Of a DNA stretch of 64,000 nt, positions 24,445 through 32,145 are shown piece by piece. Source of the DNA: Actinomycetes bacterium (GTDB lineage: Bacteria; Actinomycetota; Actinomycetes; Mycobacteriales; Mycobacteriaceae). A program made the position numbers and the translations under genes. The notes below the pieces were generated by a model that saw nothing but the letters and a program-made list of their open reading frames with translations, was not told the DNA's origin and did no database searches. The stretch lies in contig JAHZIT010000093.1 in the NCBI GenBank assembly GCA_022601275.1, positions 43,400-107,399 on the forward strand, given 5' to 3'. The first letter of the stretch is position 1; every line of letters starts with the position of its first letter.

Positions 24445-25218
24445 ATGTCGCACCCCACAGGGCCTGGCCAGCCCGACGAGAACACCGGCGAATCGACCGA
24501 CGAAACGGCTGAAACCCCAGGCTCTGACCACGAACCGGCCACCGAGGTCATGGCGCCGGCCGACCCGGCCGAGGATCAGGCCGAACAACCCGGGGAACGG
24601 CGGTTCACCGCACCGTCTGGATTCGACGCGGGATCAACCCAGATCATCGACCAGCCCGCGGATCCAGCCACCGAAGTGTTCTCGTCGACCGAGGGCGGCC
24701 AGCCCGGCGAGCAGCAGCCCGTTCCCCCCCAACTGATTCCGCCCCGTGGTGACGCGCCGCAGCAGCCGAAGAAGAAACGCAGCTGGGCATGGGTGGCGGC
24801 CATCGTGGCCGTAGTCGCCGCGCTGGCGGCCATCGCGGTTCTCGGCACGATCCTGCTGACCCGCGCGGCCACCCCCAAGGTGTCCCAGGAGGAAATGGTC
24901 CGGGCCACGATTCAGGACTTCGACATCGCCGTGCAGAACGGCGACCTGTCGACACTGCGCAGCATCACCTGCGGGACCACCCGGGACAACTACGTCCGCT
25001 ACAACGAAAAAGCCTGGGCTGAAACACACTCGCGGGTGGCTGCCGCCAAGCAGTACCCAGTGGTCGCCAGCATCGATCAGGTGGTGGTCAACGGCGATCA
25101 CGCTGAGGCGAATGTGACGACCTTCATGGCGTATGCGCCGCAGACCCGCTCGACGCGAAGCTTCGATCTAGAGTTCCGCGACGACCAGTGGAAGATCTGC
25201 CAGGCACCGGCCAGTTAG
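24445..25218 (+). CDS. Single-TM membrane protein with disordered N-terminus and NTF2-like C-terminal domain
   Basis: Acidic/Pro-rich N-terminus, KKKRSWAWVAAIVAVVAALAAIAVLGTILL TM, C-terminal DUF4878-like region. Confidence 0.85.
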   Translation: MSHPTGPGQPDENTGESTDETAETPGSDHEPATEVMAPADPAEDQAEQPGERRFTAPSGFDAGSTQIIDQPADPATEVFSSTEGGQPGEQQPVPPQLIPPRGDAPQQPKKKRSWAWVAAIVAVVAALAAIAVLGTILLTRAATPKVSQEEMVRATIQDFDIAVQNGDLSTLRSITCGTTRDNYVRYNEKAWAETHSRVAAAKQYPVVASIDQVVVNGDHAEANVTTFMAYAPQTRSTRSFDLEFRDDQWKICQAPAS

Positions 25219-26249
25219 CCGGTCACGCTCCGGCCCGCGCTGTGCAGGTCGTTGCATGCCTCGATGACCCGGTCGACCATGCCGGCCTCGGCTTTCTTCA
25301 GGTAGCTGCGCGGGTCGTAGGCCTTCTTGTTACCCACCTCACCGTCAATCTTGAGCACTCCGTCGTAGTTGGAGAAGAAATGGCCGGCGATCTGCCGGCT
25401 GAACGCGTACTGCATATCGGTGTCGACGTTCATCTTGACCACGCCATACTTCAGGGAGTCCTCGATCTCGGACTTCAATGACCCGGAACCGCCGTGGAAA
25501 ACGAAGTCGAACGGCTGAGAACCCTCCGGCAGGCCCAGCTGCGCCGAGGCCACCTTCTGCCCCTCGGCGAGGACCTCAGGTTTGAGCACCACATTGCCCG
25601 GCTTGTAGACACCGTGGACATTGCCGAACGTCGCGGCCAGCAGGTACTTGCCGTGTTCACCGGCGCCCAGGGCGGTGATGGTCTTCTCGAAGTCCTCGGC
25701 ACTTGTGTACAGCTTGTCGTTGATCTCGGCCTCGACGCCGTCCTCCTCGCCGCCGACCACCCCGATCTCGATCTCCAGGATGATCTTGGCGGCCGCGGCC
25801 AGCTTCAGCAGCTCCTGAGCAATCTCGAGATTCTCGTCGATCGGAACGGCCGAGCCGTCCCACATGTGAGACTGGAACAACGGATTGTGGCCATTGGCCA
25901 CTCTTTCCGAGGAGATCGCCAGCAGCGGCCGGACATAGCCGTCCAATTTGTCCTTCGGGCAATGGTCGGTGTGCAGCGCGACAGTGACCGGGTACTTCTC
26001 GGCGACGATATGAGCGAATTCGGCCAGGGCCACCGCGCCGGTGACCATATCCTTGACGCCGAGACCGGAGCCGAACTCCGCGCCACCGGTGGAGAACTGA
26101 ATGATGCCATCACTGCCCGCATCAGCGAAGCCCTTGAGCGCCGCGTTGATGGTCTCCGAGGACGTGCAGTTGACCGCCGGGAAGGCAAAGGAGTGCTCCT
26201 TGGCGCGACTCAGCATCTCGGCGTAGACCTCGGGCGTGGCGATGGGCAT
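25215..26249 (-). CDS. fba: Class II fructose-bisphosphate aldolase
   Basis: MPIATPEVYAEMLSRAKEHSFAFPAVNCTSSETINAALKGFADAGSDGIIQFSTGG; HTDHCPKDKLDGYV. Confidence 0.97.
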   Translation of the reverse strand: MPIATPEVYAEMLSRAKEHSFAFPAVNCTSSETINAALKGFADAGSDGIIQFSTGGAEFGSGLGVKDMVTGAVALAEFAHIVAEKYPVTVALHTDHCPKDKLDGYVRPLLAISSERVANGHNPLFQSHMWDGSAVPIDENLEIAQELLKLAAAAKIILEIEIGVVGGEEDGVEAEINDKLYTSAEDFEKTITALGAGEHGKYLLAATFGNVHGVYKPGNVVLKPEVLAEGQKVASAQLGLPEGSQPFDFVFHGGSGSLKSEIEDSLKYGVVKMNVDTDMQYAFSRQIAGHFFSNYDGVLKIDGEVGNKKAYDPRSYLKKAEAGMVDRVIEACNDLHSAGRSVTG

Positions 26250-26393: not shown

Positions 26394-27311
26394 TCAGTCG
26401 AAGTCTGTCTGCTCCTCGGATATTCCCAGCCGGCGTTCAACGAGGATCAGTCCCGCGACCGCCAGAACTCCGGCGACGAACAACAGCAGCACCATGGAGA
26501 TGTCGGCGGCCGGGGCGAGCAGGTCGCGGTCCGGGGATTGCCAGGGCCAGAGCGCCCGAAGAGACCCCACCATGAGCCCCGTGATGACGACGAGAGTGGT
26601 GCGAGCCCGGTTCGCGAGTAGCCACCTCAACAGCGTGACGAACGATGCGAGGCCAAGGGCCGCGCCGAGTCCGAAGAGTGCGATGTAGCCGAGCTCGCGG
26701 TTATTGACGGCGCTTATGGTCGCCTCGTACATGCCGACGGATAGCAGCAGGAATGAACCGGAGACTCCGGGCAACACCAGCGCGCAGATCGCTACGGCCG
26801 CAGCCAGGACGATAACGATCGGGCCCGGGTCAGCGATATTTGCCGGCGGCACACCCGTGAGCCAGAACAGGAAGACCGCGGCCACCAGCCCGACGGCGAG
26901 GTCCTTCGCGGGCCAGCCGCCCGGCGCGGTGCGGATCACCATGTGCGCCGGCACGTACACACCTGCGAGCACAAGTCCGAAGAACAACGCCCGCATCTGC
27001 ACCGGATGCGCCTCGAGCAGCGGCTCGAGGAATCGCGCCCCCAGAATCAGCGCGATGACCATGCCGATCGCCACCGGGATCAGGATTCGCCAAGGCAGAC
27101 TACGGAACGTGGACACGGCGGTGCGCGCGGATGCTTTCCCGGTACCGAGGCCGACCAGTTGCCGCAGGGAGAGCACTACATTGGCGATCGCGTTGATCAG
27201 GGTCTCGTAGAGGCCGACGATCAGTGCGACCGTTCCGCCACTCACGCCGGGGATGACCTCGGCAACGCCCATGAGTGCACCACGGATCAGGTTGGTGACA
27301 GTTCGAAGCAC
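26394..27311 (-). CDS. DUF368 family membrane protein (polyprenyl-phosphate translocase family)
   Basis: IRGALMGVAEVIPGVSGGTVALIVGLYETLI and CALVLPGVSGSFLLLSVGMYEATI twin motifs. Confidence 0.9.
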   Translation of the reverse strand: MLRTVTNLIRGALMGVAEVIPGVSGGTVALIVGLYETLINAIANVVLSLRQLVGLGTGKASARTAVSTFRSLPWRILIPVAIGMVIALILGARFLEPLLEAHPVQMRALFFGLVLAGVYVPAHMVIRTAPGGWPAKDLAVGLVAAVFLFWLTGVPPANIADPGPIVIVLAAAVAICALVLPGVSGSFLLLSVGMYEATISAVNNRELGYIALFGLGAALGLASFVTLLRWLLANRARTTLVVITGLMVGSLRALWPWQSPDRDLLAPAADISMVLLLFVAGVLAVAGLILVERRLGISEEQTDFD

Positions 27312-27424
27312 GCGATCACGCTAACGGTTGTGGCCGCGATTATGCGGGACGGTTGTGGATGACGTTCTGGGTGACGTTGTGGAGCCGTTCCTGAGCGCCC
27401 TATACGCCGGTAGCCTTGCACCCC

Positions 27425-28120
27425 GTGACGGTCGACCAACTCGCGCTGATGCCCGACTCCATGGACCCGATCAACCTCCTCGGCTACTTCGGCACCTGGG
27501 CGCTGATCGGTGTGCTCGTGGTCGTGTTCGTCGAATCAGGGGTGCTGTTTCCGATCCTGCCCGGAGACTCGCTGCTGTTCGTGTCGGGGATGCTCGCTGC
27601 CGGCACCGCCGCAGCGGCTCATGACGGGACGGTCCAAGCCAACTTCGCGCTCTGGCAGCTGCTGGTGTTCATCCCGATCGCCGCGGTGCTCGGAGGCCAG
27701 GTCGGCTACTGGACTGGACGCAAAGTCGGTACCGCCATGTTCAAGCCCAACGCGCGATTTCTTAAGCAGCGGTACCTCGACGAAGCACATCTGTTCTTCG
27801 AGCAACGCGGGCCGTTCGCCATCGTGATCGCGCGGTTCGTGCCGGTCGTGCGCACCCTGGCCCCTATCACCGCCGGCGCCGCGAAGATGAATTACAGCGT
27901 CTTTACGCTGTACAACGCCGTCGGGGCCACGGTGTGGGGTGTCGGCCTGACGCTGCTCGGGTACTGGCTGGGCCGATTCGAGATCGTCCAGAGTCTGCTA
28001 GAGCCCTTCATCATCGGGATCGTCATTCTGTCGGTCCTGCCGATGGCATACGAGTGGTACAAGCGTCGGAAAGCCGCTCCGAAGACCGAAGGGGCCGCCG
28101 AAGCCGAGCCGACGGCCTGA
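27425..28120 (+). CDS. DedA family membrane protein
   Basis: ESGVLFPILPGDSLLFVSGMLAA and IVIARFVPVVRTLAPITAGAAKM. Confidence 0.92.
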   Translation: MTVDQLALMPDSMDPINLLGYFGTWALIGVLVVVFVESGVLFPILPGDSLLFVSGMLAAGTAAAAHDGTVQANFALWQLLVFIPIAAVLGGQVGYWTGRKVGTAMFKPNARFLKQRYLDEAHLFFEQRGPFAIVIARFVPVVRTLAPITAGAAKMNYSVFTLYNAVGATVWGVGLTLLGYWLGRFEIVQSLLEPFIIGIVILSVLPMAYEWYKRRKAAPKTEGAAEAEPTA

Positions 28121-28130
28121 ATAGTCGGCC

Positions 28131-29252
28131 TCAATCGCCCGCGGCACCTGATTCGTCACTGGCGACATATGCGGCTTCCATCAACATCCAACCGGCCAAC
28201 TGCACCGATAGATCGCGCTCTGGGATCTGTGAGGAATTGACCGCTCCCTCGATGAACTGGGCCTCCTGGGTATCGGCCGTCGGTAGTTCGGCGACCCGGT
28301 CCCAGAATGCGCTGAACAACGGCAGATCCTCAGCAGTCTGGCGGTTGTCCCAGGCAGCCCGCGCCGACGCGATCACCACCGATCGCGCGGTCTGACGAGC
28401 CTGCTCGTCCCGGGGCCCGCGCCCGGGCAGCGTGGTGGCCACCAGAGCCAGATAGCGCGCCAGAATCCCGTTGAACAATCCGCCGTCACCGCCGCCGGCG
28501 CCCTTGATCACACCGTCGGGCGCCATCTCCTCGGCAACCGCAGCCACCAGCCGGTGCACCCGTTCGGCATGTTCGGCATCCTCGGTGCGTACGGCGAGTT
28601 CGGTTTCCAGTCCCAGCACTACCCCCTGGCAGTACGTGTACTGCGCCCGGACCAACGAGCCGGCCTTGATGCCGTCGAAAACCAGATGGGTCTCCGGGTC
28701 TATCAGCAACTCGTCGATCCAATCGGCCATCTGTTGCGCTCGGCGCAATCGGTCCTCGTGACGGGCGAGGAAGATGCCGGCAGGCCCATTTGCCGGTGCG
28801 TTGAAGAACTGATCCTGCTTACGCCAGGGGATTCCGCCACCGTCCTCGGGCACCCACGCGTTGAGGAACTGCCCGGCCAGCTTCTCCAGTGCCTTCGGGC
28901 GTCCCACTCCGGTGAGCCGGCCCGAGCGCTCCAGCGCCAGGGCCAACCACGCCATATCGTCGTAGTAGTCGTTGCCCCAGGACCCGAAGTTACGCAGGCG
29001 GTGTCCCCGAATCTGCCGGGCGATCGACTTCAGACGCTCGGGTTGGGGGTCACGCAGCTGCGCATCCACCAGGTTGTCCAGCAGGTGCGCCTGCCACCAG
29101 TAGTGCCAGGTCGCGAACCTCCGGTGCTGCCGAGCCGCAGGCCAGGCGACTACGCCTAGCTGCGTGCCCGGTATGCCCCAGAGCCGCTTGAGATGCCGCT
29201 TGGTGATCGCGGCTTCCGCGCTGGCGGCGCGGTTGGCCCACAACTGATCCAT
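28131..29252 (-). CDS. Glycoside hydrolase family 76-like protein
   Basis: YYDDMAWLALALERSGRL, YTYCQGVVLGLE, FNGILARYLA, typical of GH76. Confidence 0.88.
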   Translation of the reverse strand: MDQLWANRAASAEAAITKRHLKRLWGIPGTQLGVVAWPAARQHRRFATWHYWWQAHLLDNLVDAQLRDPQPERLKSIARQIRGHRLRNFGSWGNDYYDDMAWLALALERSGRLTGVGRPKALEKLAGQFLNAWVPEDGGGIPWRKQDQFFNAPANGPAGIFLARHEDRLRRAQQMADWIDELLIDPETHLVFDGIKAGSLVRAQYTYCQGVVLGLETELAVRTEDAEHAERVHRLVAAVAEEMAPDGVIKGAGGGDGGLFNGILARYLALVATTLPGRGPRDEQARQTARSVVIASARAAWDNRQTAEDLPLFSAFWDRVAELPTADTQEAQFIEGAVNSSQIPERDLSVQLAGWMLMEAAYVASDESGAAGD

Positions 29253-29887: not shown

Positions 29888-31737
29888 CCCGCCGCTGGTT
29901 CGCCCTCGGTGTCCTCGCCATGGCCGTGCTGCTCATCGGCGTCGACGGCACGGTTCTTGCGCTGGCTACCCCCTTCATCAGCGCAGACCTCGGTGCCACC
30001 GGAACACAGATCCTCTGGATCGGTGACATCTACTCGTTCGTTCTGGCCGCCCTGCTGATCAGCATGGGCAGCCTCGGTGACCGCATCGGCCACAAGAAGC
30101 TACTACTCTGCGGCGCAACGGCTTTCGCCATCATCTCGGCGGTGACCGCATATTCCTCGACGCCGGAGACCCTGATCCTGACCCGGGCCTTACTGGGCAT
30201 GGCAGGAGCGACTCTGACACCTGCCACGCTGGCATTGATCCGCGGACTGTTTCCCGACCAGAGGGAGCGCAGCATCGCCGTGGGTGTGTGGGCGTCGGCC
30301 TTCTCGGCAGGTGCCGCCCTGGGCCCCGTCGTCGGCGGCGTGTTGCTGGAACACTTCTGGTGGGGGTCGGTCTTCCTCATCAACATTCCGGTGATGCTGG
30401 TCCTACTCGTCGGCGGCATCCTGCTGCTGCCCGAGCACCGCAACCCCGAACCCGGTCCGTGGGATCTCCCCAGCGTGGCGTTGTCCATGCTCGGGATGCT
30501 CGGTGTCGTGTACGGCATCAAGGAGGGCTTCGTCGGCCTGGCTCACGGTCTGCGTATCGACGCCGTCCTGGCGGGTGTCGTGGGGGCGACGGCACTGATC
30601 TTGTTCGTCCGGCGCCAATTGCGCCTGCCGGTGCCCCTGATCGACGTCCGACTGTTCCGCAACCCGGTGTTCTCCGGGGTGGTGTCGGCGAACCTGTTGT
30701 CGGTCCTGGGCCTGTCTGGGCTGGTGTTCTTCCTGTCGCAGTACTTCCAGCTCGTGCAGGGTTTCGGGCCGCTCAAAGCCGGGATGGCGGAGCTGCCGGC
30801 GGCGGTGACCGCCACCGTGTTCGGTGTCCTCGCCGGGGTGGCTGTGCGCTACGTCTCGCACCGCGCGGTACTGACCACGGGGTTGACCCTGATCGGTCTC
30901 GCCATGGCCTCGCTATCGGCGTCGCTGAAGCTGTTCGCGCCCGTCACGCCGTACCTGCCACTCGGCGTCGCGCTGTTCGTCGTCGGTGTCGGCCTCGGCC
31001 TCGCCTTCACCGTCGCCAGCGACGTCATCCTGGCCAGCGTGCCCAAAGAACGCGCGGGCTCAGCGGCAGCGGTCTCCGAAACGGCCTACGAACTCGGGAT
31101 GGCGCTGGGCATCGCCACGCTGGGCTCGATCGTCACCGCCGTCTACCGCACGGTCGTGATCGCGCCGAGCCTTCCGGCCGCGGCAGCTGACCAAGCGCAC
31201 GATTCACTGCCCGGAGCGATCCAGGCAGCCGCAGACCTACCGGCCAGCCAGGGCACCGCATTGCTCACCGCCGCGAAGGCGGCGTTCACCGATGGCCTGG
31301 CGATCGCCTCCGCGGCCGGTGCGGCGCTGCTGCTCACGGCAGCGGTCGCAGTCTGGCTACTGCTGCGACCCAGCTCGAATGTCGCCGGCAGCCCGGCTCC
31401 CAGCTCGAATGTCGCCGGCAGCCCGGCTCCCAGGCCGAATGTCGCCGGCAGCCCGGCTCCGTCACCAGGCGCGGCCGAGGTCGGCATGCTGGCGGATCCA
31501 GGTGTGCATGGCGATCCCCGCGGCGACGCCTACGTTGATGCTGCGGGTGGAGCCGAACTGGGCGATCGATACCGTCACGCCGGCACCGGCCGTCGCGTCC
31601 GCGGTGATACCCGGTCCCTCCTGGCCGAAGACCAACAAGCAGTCGCGCGGCAAGGCGACCTCTTCGATGCGCGCGGAGCCGGGGGTGTTGTCGACCGCGA
31701 CGACGGTCAACCCGCTCTCTGCGGCGAAGTCCAGTAG
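29884..31737 (+). CDS. MFS (DHA2/14-TM) drug efflux-type transporter with repeat-containing C-terminal extension
   Basis: ATG overlaps tetR TGA (ATGA); IGVDGTVLALATPFISADLGAT, GDRIGHKKLLLCG motifs. Reading frame stays open into the opposite-strand methyltransferase gene. Confidence 0.9.
   Translation: MTRRWFALGVLAMAVLLIGVDGTVLALATPFISADLGATGTQILWIGDIYSFVLAALLISMGSLGDRIGHKKLLLCGATAFAIISAVTAYSSTPETLILTRALLGMAGATLTPATLALIRGLFPDQRERSIAVGVWASAFSAGAALGPVVGGVLLEHFWWGSVFLINIPVMLVLLVGGILLLPEHRNPEPGPWDLPSVALSMLGMLGVVYGIKEGFVGLAHGLRIDAVLAGVVGATALILFVRRQLRLPVPLIDVRLFRNPVFSGVVSANLLSVLGLSGLVFFLSQYFQLVQGFGPLKAGMAELPAAVTATVFGVLAGVAVRYVSHRAVLTTGLTLIGLAMASLSASLKLFAPVTPYLPLGVALFVVGVGLGLAFTVASDVILASVPKERAGSAAAVSETAYELGMALGIATLGSIVTAVYRTVVIAPSLPAAAADQAHDSLPGAIQAAADLPASQGTALLTAAKAAFTDGLAIASAAGAALLLTAAVAVWLLLRPSSNVAGSPAPSSNVAGSPAPRPNVAGSPAPSPGAAEVGMLADPGVHGDPRGDAYVDAAGGAELGDRYRHAGTGRRVRGDTRSLLAEDQQAVARQGDLFDARGAGGVVDRDDGQPALCGEVQ
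31371..31460. repeat. 30-bp in-frame tandem repeat, 3 copies, encoding (S/P)(S)NVAGSPAP
   Basis: cagctcgaatgtcgccggcagcccggctcc twice exactly, third copy caggccgaat... with 2 differences. Confidence 0.96.
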
Positions 31738-32145
31738 CTCGGCGGTGTTCTCGTGGTGGCGCAGCCGCTGATACCGGTCGGTGACCATGGCCCCGCGCCG
31801 GTTCCAGCGCCTGCGGCCGACGATGTGCACCGTGTCGACCGCGAAGGCGTTCGCGGTACGCACGACCGCGCCGATGTTCGCGTCATTGCCGAAGTTCTCG
31901 ATGGCCACGTGTAGCCGGTGCCTGCGCTCGTCGATGTCGGCGACGATGGCTTCACGGGTCCAATAGCGGTATTCGTCAACGACATTGCGGGTGTCGCCGG
32001 CACTCAGCAACTCCGGATCGTACCTGGAGTCATCAGGCGGCGGTCCTGTCCACGGCCCCACCCCGTGGCTCTCACCCCACTCGGTGGGGCCGGCGGCATG
32101 AGGGTCAGATCCACCAGAATCGTGGCTGCCGGCACTGGCTATCAA
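31462..32145 (-). CDS. TrmH/SpoU family RNA methyltransferase
   Basis: NFGNDANIGAVVRTANAFAVDTVHIVGRRRWNRRGAMVTDRYQ, LLVFGQEGPGIT, IAQFGSTRSINVGVAAGIAMH. Confidence 0.92.
   Translation of the reverse strand: MIASAGSHDSGGSDPHAAGPTEWGESHGVGPWTGPPPDDSRYDPELLSAGDTRNVVDEYRYWTREAIVADIDERRHRLHVAIENFGNDANIGAVVRTANAFAVDTVHIVGRRRWNRRGAMVTDRYQRLRHHENTAELLDFAAESGLTVVAVDNTPGSARIEEVALPRDCLLVFGQEGPGITADATAGAGVTVSIAQFGSTRSINVGVAAGIAMHTWIRQHADLGRAW

Follow-up and report, generated by a model that had tools for sequence, protein, structure and literature searches.

What does it mean that a DUF368 gene and a DedA gene lie back to back in the genome of an aquatic-type mycobacterium: do they form one lipid-carrier recycling system, or has one of them arrived beside the other? 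Loss of DUF368 proteins raises outer-leaflet C55-P, and the DUF368 and DedA families interact genetically in Und-P recycling (PMC9876793), while the mycobacterial carrier is C50-P (PMC12826051). The question was addressed in a stretch of 64,000 nucleotides, referred to here as the window, whose relevant features are given below in window coordinates.

25215..26249, minus strand: fba, the class II fructose-bisphosphate aldolase gene, which flanks the pair on the left and anchors the synteny (PF01116; NCBIfam TIGR01520 passes its cutoff).
26394..27311, minus strand: DUF368 protein (PopT/VCA0040-like), candidate polyprenyl-phosphate translocase; 305 aa, GTG start (PF04018).
27312..27415, no strand: divergent intergenic region between DUF368 and DedA.
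27416..28120, plus strand: DedA protein of predicted COG0586/UndP-flippase type, at the place of M. tuberculosis Rv0364; 234 aa from a TTG start (PF09335).
28131..29252, minus strand: glycoside hydrolase of family GH76, similar to Rv0365c, which flanks the pair on the right and converges with DedA (PF03663, E 5.2e-29).
31462..32145, minus strand: SpoU-family RNA methylase; anchor common to the translocase slot of the donor family (PF00588, E 1.1e-26).

Open reading frames and Pfam matches bear out the preliminary description of this locus, in which DUF368 (minus strand) and DedA (plus strand) were an adjacent divergent pair, and HMM searches uphold both family assignments (PF04018, 227.6 bits against a gathering cutoff of 26; PF09335, 65.8 against 33.9). 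The GH76-like hydrolase that it placed immediately after DedA is there as well, convergent and 10 bp past the DedA end. Its separation of about 113 bp is correct if DedA starts at an alternative in-frame GTG at 27425, which was probably the start used for that figure; from the TTG the start codons are 104 bp apart, and both candidate starts are kept in relatives. A search for sigma-70 consensus promoters in the gap found none. On the minus strand at 27309-27323, a leaderless-type -10 arrangement (TAGCGT, 6 nt, GTG) was recognized by eye before DUF368, and it is kept in four genomes (those of the window, G241, M. hippocampi and G499). Farther to the right, the C-terminus of an MFS transporter (window 31300-31480) carries tandem repeats of ~10 residues (SSNVAGSPAP).

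The DUF368 protein matches PF04018 with an E-value of 2.4e-67 over profile positions 1-234 of 246, with a PGVSGG motif at residues 21-27 and PGVSGS at 181-187. Its N- and C-terminal halves match one another (E 3.8e-7, half-versus-half profile), which points to an internal repeat with one PGVSG per copy, and in the predicted structure (pLDDT 89.6) both motifs fall at helix breaks. Scores were below the NCBIfam equivalog cutoffs, at 194 of 400 bits for the VCA0040-type model and 92 of 400 for PopT. A PDB sequence search with this protein returned no match, and a fold search with its model returned nothing significant; BacA (5oon) came third in the latter (probability 0.41, E 0.24) and was not used as evidence. 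A relation to BacA was also considered through weak PF04018 matches in the donor family, of which the two inspected were other, CDP-alcohol phosphatidyltransferase-like proteins, and this was put down to chance.

In the DedA protein, PF09335 (VTT domain) matches with an E-value of 6.7e-18. The signature of COG0586 UndP flippases comprises acidic residues at the tip of the first re-entrant segment and two arginines, six apart, at that of the second (PMC10127716). In the window DedA the acidic positions are E40 and D51 and the two arginines are R140 and R146, which gives it the signature of this subfamily; E40 and R140/R146 are invariant and D51 nearly so in our alignment A2. The other three VTT proteins of the window's genome are without the second arginine and are COG0398-like, making the COG0586-type DedA unique in this 92%-complete genome both by residues and by profile search, which gives a single match. 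Against the NCBIfam UptA models it scored 59 bits (cutoff 300) and 56 bits (cutoff 250); the closest curated model was PRK10847, annotated as a DedA family protein (156 bits of 236), and a PDB sequence search with DedA gave no match. Because both proteins fall below the PopT/UptA equivalog cutoffs, family membership and context are the basis for assigning their function. In M. tuberculosis, Rv0364 adjoins fba and one probe spans both (PMC4031216); a re-analysis of Li et al. 2022 (PMC12687858) lists the Rv0364 knockdown as one that becomes depleted under vancomycin and rifampicin, which is consistent with an envelope role.

DedA is essentially universal in Mycobacterium and DUF368 is rare. The locus-type DedA was present in 393 of 397 genomes and in all 362 good ones (at least 90% complete, at most 5% contamination); the four genomes in which it is missing have completeness values of 55, 79, 72 and 85%, the 85% genome being G499. 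Among 60 sampled genomes that lack DUF368, DedA is close to fba in every one: in 59 it falls inside the fetched 11 kb, and in G233 it is ~11 kb away. DUF368 exceeded the cutoff in five of the 397: the window's genome, G241, Mycolicibacterium hippocampi JCM 30996 (G372), G399 and G499. A flanking-gene tree places these carriers in two separate clades with different insertion points, the order being fba-DUF368-DedA in clade I (window, G241, M. hippocampi) and DedA-DUF368-GH76 in clade II (G499/G399), as seen in G399, whose DUF368 gene is split across two contigs with matching ends.

Other genes were observed around the locus in mycobacteria. Many have a zinc alcohol dehydrogenase gene between fba and DedA (L043:10065-11090 in M. 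hippocampi; gaps of L060, L066 and L106), an interval that seems to accept inserts. A fusion of an NhaA Na+/H+ antiporter with thioredoxin lies between DedA and GH76 in M. hippocampi (L043:6391-8280) and in L066:4378-6249 (Pfam-tested in L043 only), which places Na+/pH homeostasis next to the translocase locus in some mycobacteria. M. hippocampi also has an 1821-aa adhesin-like protein with cadherin/Ig-like repeats between fba and the alcohol dehydrogenase (L043:11213-16678).

In the family to which the origin of the mycobacterial DUF368 is traced below (f32, 68 genomes), a single chromosomal slot by fba and SpoU is occupied by either DUF368 or DedA. None of the 22 genomes with DUF368 had a strong DedA-family match (one had a weak match), against 40 of the 46 without it (Fisher p 9e-13 for all genomes and 3e-9 for good genomes, counted as independent despite kinship); six genomes lacked both genes or gave just a weak VTT match. 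A flanking-gene tree that covers 47 of the genomes requires at least seven state changes, some of them at nodes with weak support. Of the fetched loci, 31 of 38 with DedA have it divergent from SpoU, usually with fba close by, and 14 of 21 with DUF368 have that gene divergent from SpoU, several of the exceptions being loci that run off contig ends. SpoU and fba lie near the translocase locus in Mycobacterium too. Since several Mycobacteriaceae genera carry both genes, the exclusion is not general. Elsewhere, COG0586 DedAs are reported to be rarer in genomes with DUF368 (PMC10127716), and in Pseudomonas, where the two families are nearly exclusive, DUF368 can take the place of the DedA PA4029 (PMC12893004).

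A replacement of this kind appears to have left a trace in one mycobacterium. The order in G499 is fba-DUF368-GH76-SpoU with no DedA at the locus, and a genome-wide search of G499 found no COG0586-type DedA. Its gap between fba and DUF368 contains 111 bp that are 92% identical (E 2e-42) to the 5' end of DedA in G399, spanning, with G399 as reference, the DedA upstream region and the first ~20 codons. This relic indicates that G499 once had a DedA gene, which was removed next to DUF368. Between DedA and DUF368, G399 has an LpqN-type lipoprotein gene and another short ORF that are likewise missing from G499, so one deletion could explain all of the losses. It is possible that the absence of DedA reflects misassembly, this MAG being 85% complete, and DedA loss among the mycobacterial carriers is a single event that is borderline by counts alone (p 0.05).

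The two genes might instead be a dedicated, co-regulated pair serving one recycling system. Their divergent order around a short common promoter region would suit such a pair, as would the operon-like DUF368-DedA order in other Mycobacteriaceae genera (g9/g10) and some Streptomycetaceae. DUF368 is also near DedA in at least 4 of 50 class-level loci, whereas the chance of its lying within 5 kb of a DedA-family gene is ~1% (with ~4 DedA-family genes per genome); since the DedA profile missed three DedAs in the slot as well as other VTT paralogues, adjacency at class level is a minimum count. However, the genes almost never co-occur in f32, 99% of mycobacteria are without DUF368, the insertion point differs between the mycobacterial clades, and DedA could be lost in G499; we consider a dedicated pair unlikely. 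Conservation of the adjacency in relatives, by which the preliminary description proposed to check its recycling locus, mostly failed in Mycobacterium. The functional link that it drew is strongly supported by the mutual exclusion and slot sharing in relatives, but the locus is not a conserved mycobacterial two-transporter arrangement. We infer that the window holds an acquired DUF368 beside a resident DedA, in a redundant or transitional state.

As a separate observation, DUF368 and DedA are direct neighbors, co-directional or convergent, in Streptomycetaceae-type loci (L228, L239, L240 and L147-L149) and in L237 from another family, which suggests repeated linkage.

A further explanation is that DUF368 moves some other lipid phosphate or has another envelope role, and that the common slot is simply a recombination hot spot. 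Both proteins do lie under the equivalog cutoffs, and the fba-DedA interval does take unrelated inserts (the zinc alcohol dehydrogenase, and NhaA-thioredoxin by DedA), so that a hot spot is real to some degree. As a full account this explanation is quite improbable, since a hot spot leaves unexplained both that the presence of DUF368 predicts a genome-wide absence of DedA in f32 and that G499 has lost an otherwise universal DedA.

The origin of the mycobacterial DUF368 was examined in a tree of 111 sequences. The five mycobacterial proteins group together (100/97), and their sister is MAG_171, labelled Candidatus Nanopelagicales (100/99; its contig belongs to genome G941); all six lie within a larger clade (98/98) made up mostly of actinobacterial MAGs that look aquatic, where habitat statements lean partly on MAG names. 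The DUF368 proteins of g9 and g10 are far from the mycobacterial clade, with strong support. Identities to the window run in opposite directions: the MAG_171 locus is 80% identical in DUF368, 65% in fba and 64% in SpoU, whereas g9/g10 are 77-85% identical in fba and 41-45% in DUF368. The position of the mycobacterial proteins inside Nanopelagicales-labelled sequences indicates that their DUF368 was acquired horizontally from these aquatic actinobacteria. It is very improbable that DUF368 is ancestral in Mycobacterium and lost nearly everywhere, with the adjacency a relic of the fba-DUF368-DedA order that g9 and g10 have, as the tree parts the mycobacterial genes from those genera, DUF368 and fba identities are discordant and gene orientation differs. 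At least two gains, or passage between mycobacteria, are likelier than many losses. The transfer left no compositional trace, DUF368 having a GC content of 65.5%, equal to that of the window, and this host-like composition argues that it was not recent. A search for plasmid carriage gave just distant Vibrio-type DUF368 proteins (<40% identity), and this route was set aside. A 45523-base contig labelled Rubrivirga sp. NP52 (L134/L349) has an actinobacterial, f32-type DUF368; its organism label looks wrong.

The reading that we favor is that DUF368 and DedA are probably interchangeable polyprenyl-phosphate (here decaprenyl-phosphate) translocases and that DUF368 can displace DedA in situ. These unrelated membrane proteins would each return decaprenyl phosphate from the outer to the inner leaflet, where it would again serve the synthesis of peptidoglycan, arabinogalactan and LAM. 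The resident translocase would be DedA, which essentially all mycobacteria retain at the fba-DedA locus, whereas DUF368 reached mycobacteria by horizontal transfer from the aquatic actinobacteria with the shared slot. In V. cholerae and S. aureus, DUF368 matters most under alkaline conditions and, in V. cholerae, under high Na+ also (PMC9876793); by analogy with these homologues, the newcomer may extend carrier recycling to alkaline or high-Na+ conditions. With DUF368 in place, DedA would become dispensable and could be deleted, as in G499. The transport activity, C50-P substrate and pH/Na+ role assigned here to the window proteins are putative. A broader version is conceivable, though we lean slightly against it: that actinobacteria have one fba/SpoU slot for a polyprenyl-phosphate translocase, in which DedA and DUF368, two families with no known relationship, replace each other through homologous-flank transfer between orders, and that mycobacteria are being converted in aquatic lineages, which would make Rv0364 the main mycobacterial decaprenyl-phosphate flippase.

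Mutual exclusion of DedA and DUF368 is already known from Pseudomonas (PMC12893004). Our search, made mostly outside subscription journals, found no published report of a common DedA/DUF368 slot, of transfer into mycobacteria or of a DedA relic, and the literature searched gave no experimental proof of a mycobacterial decaprenyl-phosphate return protein. DedA occurs in every good Mycobacterium genome and is replaced only where DUF368 occurs, which makes the Rv0364 group the main candidate for decaprenyl-phosphate return. The natural replacements are ready material for cross-complementation. They also illustrate how a membrane step that looks essential can pass to a protein from a different family while the chromosomal position stays fixed, and this bears on antibiotics that target the lipid carrier.

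The window proteins can be set against characterized members of both families. With V. cholerae VCA0040 and S. aureus SAOUHSC_00846, the window DUF368 shares full-length PF04018, both PGVSG motifs and the lack of any other domain; it differs in lying outside the curated equivalog groups (NCBIfam) and in a host carrier that is C50-P, not C55-P. The VTT domain, E40, D51 and R140/R146 of the window DedA are alike in E. coli DedA and YghB, P. aeruginosa PA4029 and S. aureus/B. subtilis UptA, although it is far under the UptA equivalog cutoffs and nearer to PRK10847. The fba-DedA-GH76 order of the window is that of Rv0363c-Rv0364-Rv0365c in M. tuberculosis, where the GH76 gene (Rv0365c) adjoins Rv0364 and DUF368 is not known to occur, whereas in the window DUF368 lies between fba and DedA. 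The closest parallel in evolutionary terms, the exclusion in Pseudomonas (PMC12893004), is likewise one family replacing the other, with DUF368 rescue known in Pseudomonas only; the present case differs in belonging to Actinomycetia, in the use of the same slot for both genes, in a transitional state with both, and in a DedA relic.
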